A program made the translations under genes and the position numbers. Under the pieces are notes generated by a model that was not told the origin of the DNA, searched no databases, and saw nothing but the letters and a program-made list of their open reading frames with translations. DNA of 64,000 nucleotides from Bacteroidaceae bacterium (lineage in GTDB: Bacteria; Bacteroidota; Bacteroidia; Bacteroidales; Bacteroidaceae): positions 62,001-126,000 of the forward strand of contig JAKSLJ010000003.1 of assembly GCA_024401275.1 (NCBI GenBank), read 5' to 3'. Each line of letters opens with the position of its first letter. Positions within the stretch are counted from its first letter, which is position 1. Below, piece after piece: positions 26,055-31,932 of the stretch.

Positions 26055-26100
26055 TTTTGGCAATTTCTCCACAACTCTCATGGAGCAGCACAGATTCAGA

Positions 26101-26229
26101 ACCAGATACGAGAATCGCGTATCTGGTTTTACTTTCCTCTTTTTTTTGTTGGTGTTGGTTGGTGGTTTTGCCATGACCGAGCTGAAATCAAAGGGAATTT
26201 TTGTTTGTTTGTTTGTGTTTGTTTGCGTT
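26101..26229 (+). repeat. Left direct repeat flanking the GATC restriction island
   Basis: The element begins with a hairpin, ACCAGATACG-agaatcg-CGTATCTGGT. It continues through a T-rich run, TGTTGGTTGGTGGTTTTGCC, GAAATCAAAGGGAATTTTTG and a (GTTT)n-like tail. The same order of blocks recurs at 31402-31537 with few differences. The two copies bracket exactly the restriction-modification genes. Confidence 0.85.
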
Positions 26230-26253
26230 TTTCGGAAAAAAAACTGCAAGAAC

Positions 26254-26339: not shown

Positions 26340-27314
26340 ATGGTTAAAGCAAAACCTTTTATCAAGTGGGTTGGAGGTAAGACTCAACTCATTGAACAAC
26401 TGGATGCACAGCTGCCAGCTGACTTTGGTAATTGGGATAATGTGACTTACATTGAGCCTTTTGTGGGTGGAGGAGCGATGCTCTTTTATATGTTACAACG
26501 ATATCCGAATATCAAACATGCTGTCATAAATGATGTTAATCCAGATTTGACCACCTGTTACCGTACAGTTAGAGATAATCCTGAGGAACTGATAGCATCA
26601 TTGCAGGATATTCAGAATGTTTACAATGCTCTTGAAACAGAAGCAGCTCGCAAGGAATTCTTCTTAGCAGTTCGTGACCGTTACAATGAGAAGAATCTTG
26701 AACCTATAGAGAATACTACTAAGTTCTTCTTTCTCAATCGCACATGCTTCAACGGTCTTTATCGCGTAAACAAAAGAGGGCTTTTTAATGTACCTTTCGG
26801 TAAATACACGAACCCTCAGATTTGTGACCCTGCTACCATCCGCAAAGATAGTGAAATCTTGCAACGCGTGGAGATTTTGACCGGAGACTTTGAACTAACT
26901 TTCCCTCATGCCAACGGCAATACGCTCTTCTATTTTGATCCGCCTTATCGACCATTGAGTAACACCTCAAGTTTCAACGACTATTCAAAAGAGGCATTCA
27001 ATGATGATGCTCAGATTCGCTTAAAAGAGTATTGCGATAGAGTAAATGAGGCTGGCTTCCATTTCATGCTCAGCAATTCGGATAGTAGGGGTAAGAATGT
27101 TGAAGATGATTTCTTTGATGTTCTTTACGGAGCATATCAGATTGAACGAGTATGGGCCTCAAGAAACATCAATTCTAATGCCTCAAAGCGCGGAAAGCTC
27201 ACTGAGATTCTTGTCCACAATTACGAGGAAACCAAAGCTAACGCATATGTTGAGAACTTCCAGTTAGAGCCAATGTTTGTTGCTGAGGATGAACCAGAAT
27301 ATAACGCAAAATAA
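26340..27314 (+). CDS. dpnM: Dam/DpnM-type DNA adenine methyltransferase (GATC)
   Basis: 324 residues. An alpha-class N6-adenine methyltransferase: FIKWVGGKTQLIEQL and YIEPFVGGGAMLFYML form the AdoMet site (motifs X and I), YFDPPYRPLS is catalytic motif IV (DPPY), and NRTCFNGLYRVNKRG belongs to the target-recognition part, as in DpnM and Dam. It methylates double-stranded GATC, protecting host DNA from the DpnII-type nuclease two genes on. It is the first gene of the island, just behind the promoter, which fits methylation before restriction. Confidence 0.93.
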   Translation: MVKAKPFIKWVGGKTQLIEQLDAQLPADFGNWDNVTYIEPFVGGGAMLFYMLQRYPNIKHAVINDVNPDLTTCYRTVRDNPEELIASLQDIQNVYNALETEAARKEFFLAVRDRYNEKNLEPIENTTKFFFLNRTCFNGLYRVNKRGLFNVPFGKYTNPQICDPATIRKDSEILQRVEILTGDFELTFPHANGNTLFYFDPPYRPLSNTSSFNDYSKEAFNDDAQIRLKEYCDRVNEAGFHFMLSNSDSRGKNVEDDFFDVLYGAYQIERVWASRNINSNASKRGKLTEILVHNYEETKANAYVENFQLEPMFVAEDEPEYNAK

Positions 27315-27336
27315 GTCCCTCAAATTCAGGTGAATA

Positions 27337-27510
27337 ATGGATAGAAATATGGCAAGACCTATAAAAGAAACCCCAACGCTCTATGGTGCAGATGCGCGCC
27401 GTTTTGAGCAGATGATAGCTAATCCTAAGCCAGCTTCGCGTGAGGAAAAGGAACGCATCAGGCGTACTTATGAGGCAATGAAGGCCATTGCAACATTTCC
27501 GGTTTTATAA
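27337..27510 (+). CDS. 57-residue conserved small protein (MARPIKETP type)
   Basis: ATG 27337 (an alternative ATG at 27349 gives MARPIKETP...) to TAA 27508. The product contains RPIKETPTLYGADARRFEQM and a helical charged middle (ASREEKERIRRTYEAMKAI). Very similar short proteins starting MARPIKETPxLxGxDARRF accompany toxin or restriction genes in Bacteroidota as I remember them. The role is unknown; a regulator or antitoxin is possible. It lies between the methyltransferase and the nuclease, 22 bases after dpnM. Confidence 0.65.
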   Translation: MDRNMARPIKETPTLYGADARRFEQMIANPKPASREEKERIRRTYEAMKAIATFPVL

Positions 27511-27554
27511 CCAAAGGGAGTCGGTTTCGACCCGTTTAATCAAGGGAAAATATT

Positions 27555-28376
27555 ATGCAAAAAGACTTTGATAAATTCATGTCTCAGCTACAAGAGACAA
27601 ACCAGACGCTTGATTTCTTCTGTGATTTTGACAAGATAGCTCAGAATGTAGAAGACATCAAACTAAGCCTCTGTATGCTCAATAGCCTTGTTGGTGCAGC
27701 AGACATGCGTAAGGCTGTTGAGACAATCTGGAAGCGCGACAAAAGCGCATTCAACGTTATGGACATTCTTATCGCAGTTCGTAGCGAAGGCAAGAAGAAA
27801 GTTCTGAACTCACTTGGTGAATGTGTTGTTCTCGACACTCTTTTCACATCTATTGATGGCGTGATGGAGTATCTTGACAACACAGGACTTACAAAGGTTT
27901 TCCAACAGCAAAAGATAAAAGACCTTGTCGATTACGTCTTTGGTATAGAAACAGGGCTTGATACGAATGCAAGAAAGAATCGTAGTGGTCATGTAATGGA
28001 AGGCATGGTTGCACGTATTTTCGACAAAGCTGGTGTGAAGTACCGCCAAGAGGTTTATTCAAGCGAATGGTCTTCTATTTCAAGAGTCTTAGGCGATGAC
28101 GAAAAGCGTTTTGACTTTGTGGTTAAGTCAAAGGATAAGACCTATCTCATAGAAGTTAATTTCTATAGTGGTGGTGGTTCAAAACTTAACGAGGTTGCAC
28201 GTTCTTACTCCGATATTGCTCCTAAAATCAATTCTGTTCCAGGTTTTGAATTTGTATGGATAACAGATGGAATTGGATGGAAGAGCGCAAAGAACAAGCT
28301 GCAAGAGGCTTATAGTATAATCCCAAGCATTTATAATCTTACTAACATAGTAGAATTTATAAATTCCGTTAGATAA
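27555..28376 (+). CDS. dpnB: DpnII/MboI-type restriction endonuclease (GATC)
   Basis: 273 residues, close to the length of DpnII (288). The C-terminal half carries the PD-(D/E)xK core RFDFVVKSKDKTYLIEVNFY (Asp, then Glu-Val-Asn in place of the usual ExK, as I recall for this family) after NRSGHVMEGMVARIFDKAGV. The N-terminal half (FDKIAQNVEDIKLSLCMLNSL) also matches DpnII/MboI. It cuts unmethylated GATC. Its position behind a DpnM-type enzyme supports the call. It ends 2 bases before the next gene. Confidence 0.9.
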   Translation: MQKDFDKFMSQLQETNQTLDFFCDFDKIAQNVEDIKLSLCMLNSLVGAADMRKAVETIWKRDKSAFNVMDILIAVRSEGKKKVLNSLGECVVLDTLFTSIDGVMEYLDNTGLTKVFQQQKIKDLVDYVFGIETGLDTNARKNRSGHVMEGMVARIFDKAGVKYRQEVYSSEWSSISRVLGDDEKRFDFVVKSKDKTYLIEVNFYSGGGSKLNEVARSYSDIAPKINSVPGFEFVWITDGIGWKSAKNKLQEAYSIIPSIYNLTNIVEFINSVR

Positions 28377-28378
28377 CC

Positions 28379-29707
28379 ATGCAAGAATTTGTGAACTTTT
28401 GCAATTCCATAAGAGATTTGGTCGAGTCGCACCCTCAAATGAATATTGAAGGAGCGAGACAGATTGTATGTGCCATAAATAACTATTTGTACACGACCCA
28501 TCCAAACATCGGTACAATAGAAAAGCTTGGAACAACATTTGATTATTTTTCTGACTTCCATAAGTTCTGGCATAATCATCATGAAGAAATTCTTGGTTGT
28601 ACAATTGACGATGTGAATTGTGAAAAAATTGCAGATTCGCTTCATGATGTTTATTTATCAACACAAGGTGCTGCATTTAATTCCGTTTGGGATACTTGTG
28701 GATTATCCAATGAGCAAGTATGCAGAATTCGACTCCTAACAGCAAATCAGGATTTCAGAGGTTCGAGAAATTTTTATGATTTAGCGAATGTTTTTGAAAG
28801 CGATAATACAATTTTTGATGAAAATAATATCAAAGAAGAGCCACAAGATTTCCTCCGTTCTATTGATGTGGGTGGTTTGTCTCAAAACGACAAGCGCATT
28901 AACTATGCTAAAAACATTGCAGATTTCTTACTCTCTCATAACTGTTCACCCTACGAACTTATAGACAAGTATGATAGGGATATATTTGCCTTAAGGAATG
29001 CTTTGATTGCATGTAATGCTGGCTATGGTAATAAAAAGGCAGACATGTTCGTCAGAGACATGGTTGTCTTAGGAATTTGGACAGGTGTGACTGGTTTTGA
29101 AAAAATCAATGTTGCAAGTGATGTCAATACAATAAAAGTGGCATTAAGAACTGGTATAATCAAAACCGAGATTCCTCTTGTATCGAGTTTCCTTGATATT
29201 TTTTGCTATCAGTATGGTTATATAGACGACATGAATGCTAAGGCATGGAGAAGGGTATGGGAGATTTGGATATACAAATATCCAGAAGATCAAATATCAA
29301 GCCCTTGTTTATTGGATTACTTTGTTTATAATGTAATTGGAAGGCAATTCTGTCGCGAAAGCTTGAGCATTTTCCGTGGTAATAATTGCGGTCACATTTT
29401 TAGATGGCATTCTGGTGTGAATAAAACCTGTCAAACTTGTCATACACAAGGTATTAGAAGACAACCTGCATCTGTAATAAATAAAGTAATGCCTTGTTGC
29501 GATGATGAAGGGTTTGTTGCAATTCTATGGACTGATTATGTAAAGTCATTACCAGAAGACCAAAAGATTCGCAGATGCCCATTTGTTGATATTTGTGCAG
29601 ACAAGAAGCATATGATGCCTCCAAAATCAATAAGCATTATGGGGCAAACTGGTTGGCGATCAGCTTATAGCATAGAAGGAGAAGGTGGTGGAGGCTTAAT
29701 GGCATAA
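28379..29707 (+). CDS. Unrecognised protein with HhH-GPD-like region and cysteine cluster
   Basis: 442 residues, not matched to any restriction family I know. Residues 191-262 resemble the helix-hairpin-helix/GPD core of base-excision DNA glycosylases: ACNAGYGNKKADMFVRDMV (G-x-G-x-K-K-A-D) followed 30 residues later by VASDVNTIKVALRTGII, where Asp248 would be the catalytic aspartate. A C-terminal group of cysteines (351, 354, 373, 374, 400, 406) could hold an Fe-S cluster or zinc, but its spacing is not the MutY/Nth pattern. It starts 2 bases after the DpnII-like gene and is followed by a MutH-like nuclease. A DNA-damage or modified-base role in the restriction system is inference. Confidence 0.5.
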   Translation: MQEFVNFCNSIRDLVESHPQMNIEGARQIVCAINNYLYTTHPNIGTIEKLGTTFDYFSDFHKFWHNHHEEILGCTIDDVNCEKIADSLHDVYLSTQGAAFNSVWDTCGLSNEQVCRIRLLTANQDFRGSRNFYDLANVFESDNTIFDENNIKEEPQDFLRSIDVGGLSQNDKRINYAKNIADFLLSHNCSPYELIDKYDRDIFALRNALIACNAGYGNKKADMFVRDMVVLGIWTGVTGFEKINVASDVNTIKVALRTGIIKTEIPLVSSFLDIFCYQYGYIDDMNAKAWRRVWEIWIYKYPEDQISSPCLLDYFVYNVIGRQFCRESLSIFRGNNCGHIFRWHSGVNKTCQTCHTQGIRRQPASVINKVMPCCDDEGFVAILWTDYVKSLPEDQKIRRCPFVDICADKKHMMPPKSISIMGQTGWRSAYSIEGEGGGGLMA

Positions 29708-29740
29708 AAATATAAATAAGTACATTTAAATAGAATCAAT

Positions 29741-30445
29741 ATGATAAGTAGTAAGGTTATAGAAGTTCTTACTCCACTTTTTAATATAGTGACTAACGCA
29801 AAAGGTAAGACTATACGCCAGATAAAAGACGAATTGTTTATAGGCGATAAATGTAAGATGAAGAAAGGTGCTTCTGGTCTTATTGTTGAAAACCTACTTG
29901 GTGTAGAAAACAATAACCGAGACGAAGCCGACCTTCCTCAGATAGGATGTGAGATTAAGATTCTTCCTTTGCAGAAGAACAGGGATGGTTCTATTAAGGC
30001 AAAGGAACCTACAGCTATTCAGATGATTAATTATTGTGAGGTAGCAAAAGAAACATGGGAAACTGCAAAACTACGCAGCAAGATTAATTTAACTTTTTGG
30101 GTTGTATATCTGGCCAAAGAGAATGGTACTTCAAAGGCTCAAGATGATTATGTTATAGTTGACTATTTCCTTGACCATCCTTCGGATGTTCAAAACGGAG
30201 TTTTCAAAACAGATTGGGAAGAAATTCAGTCTTACATAAAGCGAGGTGATGCAGATAAATTATCTTGTAGCATGGGTACTTATCTTGAACCTAAAACCAA
30301 AGGCGCAAACAATCAAGATGAAACAGACGCTCCTGACGGAAAGGGTGGTTTAACTCGTGCACGTCGTAGAGCTTTCTACTACAAGAAGAATTACACCAAT
30401 ACACAGATTATTCCTAATTTGGATTTATCAGCTATTAAAAAGTGA
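29741..30445 (+). CDS. MutH/Sau3AI-family endonuclease
   Basis: 234 residues. KKGASGLIVENLLG, then EADLPQIGCEIKILPLQ is the MutH/Sau3AI catalytic pattern (Glu, then D-x(n)-E-x-K), followed by KEPTAIQMINY. MutH nicks and Sau3AI cuts at GATC, so this is probably a second nuclease with the same recognition as the DpnII-like one. Its length fits a one-domain enzyme (Sau3AI has two such domains). The stop overlaps the start of the dpnA-like gene (GTGA). Confidence 0.85.
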   Translation: MISSKVIEVLTPLFNIVTNAKGKTIRQIKDELFIGDKCKMKKGASGLIVENLLGVENNNRDEADLPQIGCEIKILPLQKNRDGSIKAKEPTAIQMINYCEVAKETWETAKLRSKINLTFWVVYLAKENGTSKAQDDYVIVDYFLDHPSDVQNGVFKTDWEEIQSYIKRGDADKLSCSMGTYLEPKTKGANNQDETDAPDGKGGLTRARRRAFYYKKNYTNTQIIPNLDLSAIKK

Positions 30446-31368
30446 TACAAACATATTACAAGTCATCCAACAACGATTTCCTCCTTGCTCACGGAGATAC
30501 GTTTCAGTTGCTAAAAGATTTTAGCTTCAAGTTCGACATGATATTTGCCGATCCTCCTTACTTCCTCTCCAATGGTGGCATAAGCCTACAGAGCGGGAAG
30601 GTGGTTTGCGTGGATAAAGGCGAATGGGACAAGGGGAAGAGTCCCGAAGAAATGAAGGATTTCAACATGGAGTGGCTCGGATTGTGCCGCGACAAGTTGA
30701 AGGATAATGGCACTATCTGGATTTCGGGAACGTATCATAACATTTTCTCCGTAGCTAACTGCCTCACGGAACTTGGCTACAAGATTCTGAACGTGATAAC
30801 ATGGCAGAAGACTAATCCACCTGTAAATATCTCTTGCCGTTTCTTTACCTACTCAACGGAGTTCATCATCTGGGCTAGGAAGAGCAAGAAAGTTGCTCAT
30901 AAGTACAACTATGAACTGATGAAGAAACTCAACGACAACAAGCAGATGACTGATGTCTGGCGTTTGCCTGCCATCGGTCGTTGGGAGAAGTCGTGTGGCA
31001 AGCATCCTACGCAGAAACCTCTGTCTGTTCTGACTCGCATAATCCTTGCTTCTACAGATAAAGGCGACTGGATTCTTGACCCATTCAGCGGAAGCTCAAC
31101 GACTGGTATTGCCGCTTGTCTGTGCGACCGAAGGTTTGCTGGCATTGAGCAATCGGAAGAGTTCTGCCAAATGAGTAAGGCAAGACGCGAAGAACTTGAC
31201 CAAAAGGGAGTAAAGGCTGACCTGAAGCGACACATTGTTGATTTCAAGGCTTTGGAATCATTTGGGCAGCTGAACCTCTTTGATGGCGAAGATACCGGAA
31301 TGGTTTGCGAAGACGAAAGCGCACTCTATGGAATGTTGCCTTTCGACACAAAGCCTTTGAACAAGTAA
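30442..31368 (+). CDS. dpnA: DpnA-type (beta-class) adenine methyltransferase
   Basis: 308 residues from GTG 30442, overlapping the MutH-like gene by 4 bases. MIFADPPYFLSNGGISLQSG (motif IV DPPY near residue 37) with VDKGEWDKGKSP, WQKTNPPVNISCRFFTYSTE, HPTQKPLSVLTRIILAST and LDPFSGSSTTGIAA (motif I) give the permuted beta-class order. They match the DpnA sort, which methylates GATC on single-stranded DNA. In the pneumococcal system dpnM, dpnA and dpnB lie together; here the order is M, small ORF, B, HhH-like, MutH-like, A. Confidence 0.92.
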   Translation: MIQTYYKSSNNDFLLAHGDTFQLLKDFSFKFDMIFADPPYFLSNGGISLQSGKVVCVDKGEWDKGKSPEEMKDFNMEWLGLCRDKLKDNGTIWISGTYHNIFSVANCLTELGYKILNVITWQKTNPPVNISCRFFTYSTEFIIWARKSKKVAHKYNYELMKKLNDNKQMTDVWRLPAIGRWEKSCGKHPTQKPLSVLTRIILASTDKGDWILDPFSGSSTTGIAACLCDRRFAGIEQSEEFCQMSKARREELDQKGVKADLKRHIVDFKALESFGQLNLFDGEDTGMVCEDESALYGMLPFDTKPLNK

Positions 31369-31401
31369 ACCTTATCATCATCCCCTCCGCATTTCAGTTA
31401 A

Positions 31402-31537
31402 ACCAGATACGAGAATCGCATATCTGGTTTTACATTTCTCTTTTTTTGTTGGTTTGTTGGTGTTGGTTGGTGGTTTTGCCATGAACGAGCTGAAGACAAA
31501 GGGAATTTTTGTTTGTTTGTTTGCGTTTGTTTGCGTG
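31402..31537 (+). repeat. Right direct repeat flanking the GATC restriction island
   Basis: Same block order as 26101-26229: hairpin ACCAGATA...TATCTGGT (one stem mismatch relative to the left copy), T-run, TGTTGGTTGGTGGTTTTGCC, AAAGGGAATTTTTG and GTTTG tail. It lies 33 bases after the last island gene. Confidence 0.85.
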
Positions 31538-31685
31538 TTATTCTGAAAGAAATGCGGAATTGTTTTTCCGAATGGCACTTCGCGGTGGGGATCAACTCGA
31601 AGGGCGTCGCAAAACGCGACTCCCCTTTAAACAGGATTCCCATTTTGGGAATGCAGATGCCGGAGCTTCTCCAAGATTATATGTA

Positions 31686-31779
31686 GCTCAAAGAAACTGG
31701 TAAGAAATAAAAGAAACTTACTTGGCGAAGTAACCCTGCATTATAGCCGCCCCTTATCAAGGGGCTCTAAATCTTCGAG
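31686..31779 (+). repeat. Dispersed ~95-bp intergenic repeat, copy B
   Basis: Near-identical to the reverse complement of 2694-2789. Includes CTGCATTATAGCCGCCCC and the palindrome CCCCTTATCAAGGGG, then TCTAAATCTTCGAGC. Confidence 0.8.
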
Positions 31780-31816
31780 CAAAAACAAAAAGAAAATTTT
31801 TGAGAACAATGACGCT

Positions 31817-31932
31817 CTTGTTGGAAACGACGCCCCATGGCGTCGTTAAACCGCCGCAAAGCAAATCAAACAAATCCAACAATCAAACAAATCCGCTCAT
31901 TAACGACACCAGGGGGCGTCGTTTCCAACAAG
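31817..31932. repeat. 116-bp element with 31-bp imperfect terminal inverted repeats
   Basis: CTTGTTGGAAACGACGCCCC (31817-) and its reverse complement (ending 31932) bound a 54-base centre. The left arm contains a nested perfect hairpin AACGACGCC-ccat-GGCGTCGTT; the right arm has a weaker version. The size and shape are those of a MITE-like or large hairpin element. No target-site duplication is obvious. Confidence 0.6.

Follow-up and report, generated by a model that had tools for sequence, protein, structure and literature searches.

Exchangeable second effectors in a GATC restriction-modification cassette of a Bacteroidaceae bacterium, among them a putative HhH-GPD-like restriction glycosylase

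A six-gene cassette in the genome of a Bacteroidaceae bacterium (GenBank assembly GCA_024401275.1; 3.2 Mb, 71 contigs, 91% complete) raises the question of what a MutH/Sau3AI-like nuclease and a 442-residue protein of no named family are doing inside a DpnII-type restriction-modification system. The cassette lies in a stretch of 64,000 nucleotides (contig JAKSLJ010000003.1, positions 62,001 to 126,000 of the forward strand), here called the window and numbered from its own first letter. The original prediction, made from the letters alone, described an expanded GATC system acting as one layered machine. The expansion is supported, with linked extra effectors found in other genomes; the single fixed machine is not, because its parts are exchangeable occupants of a slot, each of which occurs without the others. 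We favour, at a little short of an even chance, the reading that the window holds one GATC restriction-modification cassette whose second-effector slot takes exchangeable genes, and that the 442-residue protein would be a restriction glycosylase acting at the methyltransferase's site and unrelated to R.PabI.

All six open reading frames (ORFs) are real, with coordinates and strand as predicted (Table 1). Strong Pfam, NCBIfam or PADLOC matches bear out the dpnM, dpnA and dpnB parts at 26340, 30442 and 27555; the DpnM and DpnA genes adjoin the DpnII homologue on the same strand, and the tight joins are as described, with a 2-base gap between the DpnII-like and 442-residue genes (28376/28379) and a 4-base overlap of the MutH-like and DpnA-like genes (30442-30445). 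Judged by family, the DpnM-, DpnII-, DpnA-like and single-domain MutH-like assignments are secure, and GATC specificity is predicted for the DpnM-like enzyme from the family to which it belongs. The window shares the homologues of the DpnII system (dpnM-dpnA-dpnB) at strong E-values but has the order DpnM-DpnII-slot-DpnA, with a 57-residue ORF, the 442-residue protein and the MutH-like nuclease in addition; the order DpnM-DpnA-DpnII occurs in only one of 45 loci of the bacterial family (G059). Profile searches, proposed with the original prediction for the three added genes, placed 29741 in the MutH family and returned no model for the other two, which have no match in Pfam, NCBIfam or PADLOC at E<=1. 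The predicted 57-residue protein stands as an ORF and is unproven as a gene: among 20 relatives only the window's own copy was found, with none in plasmids or the other loci compared, and the ORF could be either a gene of recent origin or no gene at all.

The slot itself is observed directly. Among 301 genomes of the taxonomic family, 45 bear DpnII; with one locus taken from each and three not assessable (G058, G061, G268), extra genes lie inside the cassette in 20 of 42 loci and are absent from 22. The occupants make up nine families (Table 1), some of which may be distant PD-(D/E)XK kin; the commonest, of 174-179 residues, has weak PD-(D/E)XK signs and no confident match in Pfam, NCBIfam or PADLOC. 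Two extra ORFs are also present in G228 and G047, and the pair of 442-residue and MutH-like genes in the window only. Each of the two extra genes recurs in cassettes of other genomes, and the gene neighbourhoods indicate that both are exchangeable occupants, each found without the other. Of the insert-free cassettes, that of G196 is closely flanked by its MutH-like gene; G080 and G237 carry relatives of the 175-residue and 178-185-residue families directly past DpnA, on the opposite strand; and DpnM went unrecognised in G042, G198 and G270. Placed on a quick DpnM tree (45 rows, 42 labelled), the slot states imply a minimum of 19 changes, a figure obtained with several long branches and no shuffle control. 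At one locus two adjacent DpnII genes stand between DpnM and DpnA (L107 5356-7022), and the 175-residue family is found both in DpnII cassettes and, in distant phyla, beside the 442-residue family.

The MutH/Sau3AI-like nuclease at 29741 is confirmed by its Pfam match and by its best match in the PDB, residues 37-229 of Sau3AI (4pxg, 1.8e-21), followed by MutH. Its residues E50, D64, E71 and K73 align with the MutH catalytic set, which we take to be E56, D70, E77 and K79, so the protein looks catalytically intact. It shares the MutH domain with Sau3AI, an enzyme of two domains, but is itself a single domain of 234 residues that scores 134.6 with NF040973 against a cut-off of 300, and its gene is linked to DpnII-type methyltransferases. 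MutH matches occur in 23 of the 301 family genomes, as 18 frames of 475-559 residues that resemble two-domain Sau3AI and five single-domain frames of 230-241 residues, the window's included. Four of those five accompany DpnII: besides the window, G023 and G049 have the order DpnM-DpnII-MutH-DpnA with overlapping genes, and in G196 the gene lies just upstream of DpnM-DpnII-DpnA, with a weak match to the window's protein (1.7e-11). The fifth, G153 (genome 86% complete), has DpnM-MutH-DpnA and is not among the 45 genomes with DpnII; thus, to judge from gene order, the MutH-like gene can be the sole effector of such a cassette. Although they form separate families, DpnII and MutH/Sau3AI both belong to the PD-(D/E)XK superfamily, which qualifies the two nuclease folds named in the original prediction. 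DpnII and Sau3AI-type enzymes cut ^GATC and leave 5' overhangs, which contradicts the blunt cleavage suggested for the locus.

What the 442-residue protein might be is suggested by its alignment (16 rows, the fragment at L024 omitted), which splits into DpnM/DpnA-linked and MTase524-linked subfamilies, with L016 in the second by sequence and yet adjoining DpnM. When compared with EndoIII by hhalign, the family's GYGNKKA pairs with GVGRKTA, SDVNTIKVALRTGI with VDTHVFRVANRIGL and IGRQFC with HGRYTC, so that the HhH lysine, the catalytic aspartate and the first iron-sulphur cysteine of EndoIII are paired in colinear order. The score is 31.0, against a maximum of 24.2 and a mean of 15.6 for 100 column shuffles, 16.0 for the reversed profile and 12.6-18.4 for four unrelated cassette families. 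Against DUF2400, where the lysine and aspartate also align, it is 34.7-36.7 against a maximum of 28.6 in 60 shuffles, a score weakened by a comparison of seven rows in which one (L043) is a wrong neighbouring ORF and L037 has no row. Lys219 and Asp248 are invariant in all 15 sequences that cover them, some only 32-36% identical to the window's; C351, C400 and C406 are present in 13 of 13 covering sequences and C325 in 13 of 14. The cysteine spacing is C-X6-C-X27-C-X5-C in six of seven members of subfamily B versus C-X6-C-X2-C-X5-C in the aligned EndoIII sequences, and the alignment of subfamily B alone to EndoIII keeps the lysine and aspartate pairing and ends before the cysteines. Accordingly, the predicted 442-residue HhH-GPD-like protein is a real ORF whose label comes from weak profile-profile scores and colinear candidate catalytic residues, not from a model match, and we treat the kinship as a lead. 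The family differs from HhH-GPD glycosylases in having no curated-model match, in an extra conserved N-terminal region (invariant FHKxW, TAxQDF and SQxDKR) and in the methyltransferase gene beside it at every locus.

With the window's genome counted, matches to the family occur in 3 of 301 genomes of the taxonomic family and 3 of 395 of a phylum sample, one of the three being spurious in each, and in 1 of 393 of an order sample; the host genome has a single match. Weak matches in G160 (872-residue frame, 24% identity) and G524 (1235-residue frame) were judged spurious and dropped from the counts. A scan of 84,980 species genomes found 15 loci, Phocaeicola barnesiae among them, a lower bound because just two peptide patterns were used; with the window and G374 there are 17 distinct loci, assigned by record title to Bacteroidota, Elusimicrobia, Omnitrophota, Zixibacteria, Chloroflexi, Caldisericia, Cloacimonadota, Atribacteria, Heimdallarchaeota and Nitrososphaerota. 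The family was not found on plasmids or phages by tblastn with one member per subfamily, nor in viral contigs by three pattern scans of limited reach.

In bacteria and archaea alike, a DNA methyltransferase gene is observed within 1.25 kb of the 442-residue gene at all 17 loci (at L024 as a piece). DpnII adjoins it at four (the window, P. barnesiae, L011, L014), whereas eight have no recognised nuclease among the scanned neighbours (L010, L013, L016, L017, L018, L019, L020, L022), L018 having an unnamed 408-residue neighbour and L013 a DndB-like one. At L010 (DpnM-442-DpnA) and L016 (DpnM-442-methyltransferase), both without DpnII, the gene occupies the position of the restriction gene; at L017 and L022 it follows a methyltransferase gene and a 96-residue ORF and encodes the only effector candidate seen among ordinary genes, the nearest recognised being patatin/Omp85 and PurA genes at L017 and LeuRS and UbiE-like genes at L022. 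No DpnII match was obtained in five of these genomes (L010, L013, L015, L016, L018), L011 and L014 being positive in the same test, and no MutH/Sau3AI match in eight (L009, L010, L013, L015, L016, L017, L018, L022). At the other five loci the company is varied: a DUF6997 piece at L009 (1.3e-22), a NucS_C-like piece at L024 (0.0014, below cut-off), the 175-residue family at L015 and L021, and at L023 a 275-residue neighbour that looks PD-(D/E)XK-like by eye and gave only Forkhead (0.0075) in Pfam. Methyltransferases of a class marked by an HPPY motif, with lengths of about 300 or 520 residues, stand beside the family at L009, L015, L016, L017, L019, L020, L022 and L023; the site of this class may also be GATC, because GATC is depleted in samples of two such genomes (G374, G1094).

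Counts of GATC (maximal-order observed/expected, on samples of 12-92 kb in many of which CTAG and GGCC are low too) give 0.40 for the window's genome (92-kb sample), 0.10-0.34 for six other DpnII genomes and 0.34 for G153; three genomes of the same genus without a DpnII or MutH match serve as controls at 0.53, 0.55 and 0.74. Among eight genomes with the 442-residue family and no MutH match, of which five were also tested for DpnII and G374, G1093 and G1094 were left out of that test, four are at 0.24-0.32 (G1086, G1090, G1094, G374), G374 contrasting with 0.82 in G524 of its own family. The depletion fits GATC restriction in some of these genomes and is not decisive.

On the favoured reading, DpnM and DpnA would methylate the GATC adenine of the cell's own DNA and DpnII would cut unmethylated GATC, as expected of these well-known families, and the slot between DpnII and DpnA would take exchangeable second effectors, two of them in the window. 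Unmethylated or hemi-methylated GATC is the probable target of the single-domain MutH-like enzyme, which would nick or cut it. The 442-residue protein would flip a base out of the methyltransferase's site, probably the adenine in its unmethylated state, and excise it; Lys219 and Asp248 would serve in this reaction, an abasic site or a nick would result, and host methylation would block the enzyme; we infer this site, chemistry and role from the sequences. In its mode of action it would resemble R.PabI-type restriction glycosylases, which excise a base where their site is unmethylated and have a methyltransferase partner. R.PabI has the HALFPIPE fold, whereas the 442-residue family looks HhH-GPD-like; the window's protein matches no model at E<=1 in any of the three libraries Pfam, NCBIfam and PADLOC, the presence of a PabI model in them not having been checked. 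It is possible, if somewhat doubtful, that the family constitutes a second, unrelated class of restriction glycosylase on an iron-sulphur HhH-GPD fold, which in bacteria and archaea alike goes with N6/N4 methyltransferases, those for GATC among them, and is here stacked with DpnII and a MutH-like enzyme, so that two chemistries would act on unmethylated GATC. If the 442-residue protein is indeed a restriction glycosylase, restriction by base excision had two or more origins, the second of them in an EndoIII-type repair fold, and a function open to test can be assigned to a family that no Pfam, NCBIfam or PADLOC model covers. Whatever the role of the 442-residue protein, the slot of DpnII cassettes is a simple place to seek unknown nucleases, some of its occupants having no named family.

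Several observations weigh against a restriction glycosylase. DpnII or other nuclease-like or unnamed genes accompany the family at 9 of 17 loci, and a non-restriction accessory role therefore fits as well. The lone loci L010, L013, L018 and L020 lie near contig edges, the neighbour scans took in part of the nearby ORFs, four of the 17 members are cut or partial (L014, L018, L023, L024), and the DpnII and MutH/Sau3AI checks concern mostly metagenome-assembled genomes, which may be incomplete and in which other restriction enzymes were not searched for. PF00730 matches none of 16 members at E<=1, and stray weak Pfam matches fall in ten families, the strongest at 0.0015 in a single member and DUF2400 at 0.13 in two members; a sequence search of the PDB gave nothing better than E 0.77 for the 442-residue protein. 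Single subfamilies score 25.6 and 26.0 against EndoIII, barely over the shuffle maximum of 24.2, and hhalign probabilities are low (4-14% for EndoIII, 27-43% for DUF2400); HhH-GPD kinship is therefore a residue-backed lead and not proof. The other four of the eight genomes without a MutH match are control-like at 0.52-0.70 for GATC, and small samples (6-12 kb) at other DpnII loci range over 0.00-0.50, three of them at 0.42-0.50, so that the DpnII and control groups nearly touch.

A rival reading is repair, the 442-residue protein being a glycosylase that travels with methyltransferases and mends by-products or deaminated methylated bases. Vsr and Mig.MthI serve m5C enzymes in this way, Mig.MthI being an HhH-GPD glycosylase linked to an m5C methyltransferase. 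The constant methyltransferase neighbour, with eight loci lacking a recognised nuclease nearby, would suit such a role; the classifiable partners, however, are of the DpnM/DpnA type and a second N6/N4 class, and the need for repair would be weak because deamination of m6A is rare. In DpnII cassettes, moreover, the gene occupies a slot otherwise partly filled by nuclease-like genes, and we consider repair unlikely, the precedent of Mig.MthI, which is named a T/G mismatch DNA enzyme (PMC2714593), notwithstanding. A glycosylase might instead form a second layer that excises the modified bases by which phages are shielded from DpnII, leaving unmodified phages to DpnII; Brig1 and Brig3, anti-phage defence glycosylases of the uracil-DNA glycosylase superfamily aimed at modified cytosine, are the precedent (PMC11078745, PMC13160076), and share with the proposed role the use of a DNA glycosylase as defence effector. 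Neither 'HhH' nor 'methyltransferase' occurs in the main texts of those two papers (PMC11078745, PMC13160076). Co-location with DpnII at 4 of 17 loci would agree with a second layer, but at eight loci there is no recognised nuclease to back up, and an enzyme for modified bases would need no cognate methyltransferase, which is found at all 17; we regard it as quite improbable, and the attack on hemi-methylated or phage-altered GATC that the original prediction offered as an example is not borne out by the results obtained.

The weak similarity to known glycosylases, and invariant N-terminal motifs that lack explanation, could point to a protein without catalytic activity that partners the methyltransferase or nuclease by binding DNA or by regulation. 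Against this stand the candidate catalytic lysine and aspartate, kept throughout so divergent a family, and the occurrence of the gene in cassettes both with and without DpnII, which make such a partner rather improbable too. That 28379 and 29741 entered a plain DpnII cassette as passengers unrelated to it, an outcome named beforehand as refuting the prediction, is very unlikely indeed: although most of the bacterial family's DpnII loci have neither gene and a repeat of about 150 bp flanks the whole cassette, each gene is repeatedly tight with DpnM and/or DpnA elsewhere and each also occurs without DpnII, and the neighbourhoods searched did not have the passenger pattern. The reading of the 442-residue protein as a restriction glycosylase stays the favoured one. 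No HhH-GPD restriction enzyme and no cassette of DpnII, MutH and the 442-residue protein was among the literature matches listed, from a search whose scope excluded most subscription papers.

Table 1. Features of the cassette in the window and occupants of the slot in DpnII cassettes
Feature	Position or loci	Strand	Matches and remarks
Left copy of ~150-bp repeat	26100..26242	+	87.5% identity to 31401-31552
DpnM/Dam-like N6-adenine methyltransferase, 324 residues, predicted GATC	26340..27314	+	PF02086 2.2e-60; TIGR00571 dam 1.3e-81
57-residue ORF	27337..27510	+	no Pfam, NCBIfam or PADLOC match
DpnII-type restriction endonuclease, 273 residues	27555..28376	+	PF04556 1.2e-101; PADLOC REase_II 4e-88
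442-residue putative HhH-GPD-superfamily protein, proposed base-excising restriction effector	28379..29707	+	no named family at E<=1
HhH-like motif AGYGNKKADMFVRDM (residues 214-228), including candidate catalytic Lys219 at 29033-29035	29018..29062	+	aligns with EndoIII GVGRKTA
Candidate catalytic Asp248 codon	29120..29122	+	aligns with Asp of EndoIII VDTHVFRV
Cysteines C325, C351, C400, C406, possible [4Fe-4S] site	29351..29596	+	conservation and spacing
Single-domain MutH/Sau3AI-like nuclease, 234 residues	29741..30445	+	PF02976 4.5e-20; NF040973 Sau3AI 4.6e-39, below cut-off
DpnA-like N6/N4 methyltransferase, 308 residues, GTG start	30442..31368	+	PF01555 (N6_N4_Mtase) 2.5e-57; PADLOC MTase_II 5.6e-94
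Right copy of ~150-bp repeat	31401..31552	+	pair with 26100-26242
Slot occupant: 174-179-residue family, commonest	6 loci, one cut by contig end: L059 2589-3113, L062 2322-2846, L065 2314-2853, L054 962-1492, L071 941-1477, L112 1-230		PDDEXK_11 0.002, below cut-off
Slot occupant: 175-residue family	3 loci		no named model
Copies of 175-residue family	L045 2356-2883, L060 2312-2839, L116 2878-3408, L021 883-1413, L015 8521-9159
Slot occupant: 178-185-residue unnamed family	3 loci, one in degraded cassette (G252)
Slot occupant: MutH-like alone	2 loci
Slot occupant: 442-residue protein alone	1 locus
Slot occupant: 442-residue and MutH-like	1 locus, the window
Slot occupant: HNH	1 locus		PF01844 4.3e-8
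Slot occupant: DUF6996/6997 protein	1 locus		PADLOC label REase_II
Slot occupant: second DpnII	1 locus
Extra gene: 383-residue protein	1 locus, placed before DpnII		weak HSDR_N signs

Further features were seen in and around these loci. A promoter scan gave 12, not above the shuffle level (mean 14.3), and dN/dS (the ratio of nonsynonymous to synonymous substitution rates) was left unused, dS being saturated in seven of nine gene pairs. At L015 (5044-6251, minus strand), the remains of what seems, by eye, to be a duplicate of the N-terminal portion of the 442-residue gene lie between its intact copy and the methyltransferases. A NACHT-domain protein follows the cassette at L011 (10618-14547) and a DndB-like protein stands beside the 442-residue copy at L013 (2545-4104), as in defence islands. 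The ~150-bp repeat that flanks the window's cassette has a palindromic start and 17 matches genome-wide, the flanking two being the best and the others shorter and scattered; it may be a trace of how the cassette moved. Of the palindromic tetramers in the window (1-64000), GGCC shows the strongest depletion (0.22), which hints at another restriction system in the host genome. Just right of the cassette lie a dispersed repeat (31668-31782, 91% identical to 2691-2807) and a long inverted repeat (31817-31932) with 33-nt arms that are 94% identical.

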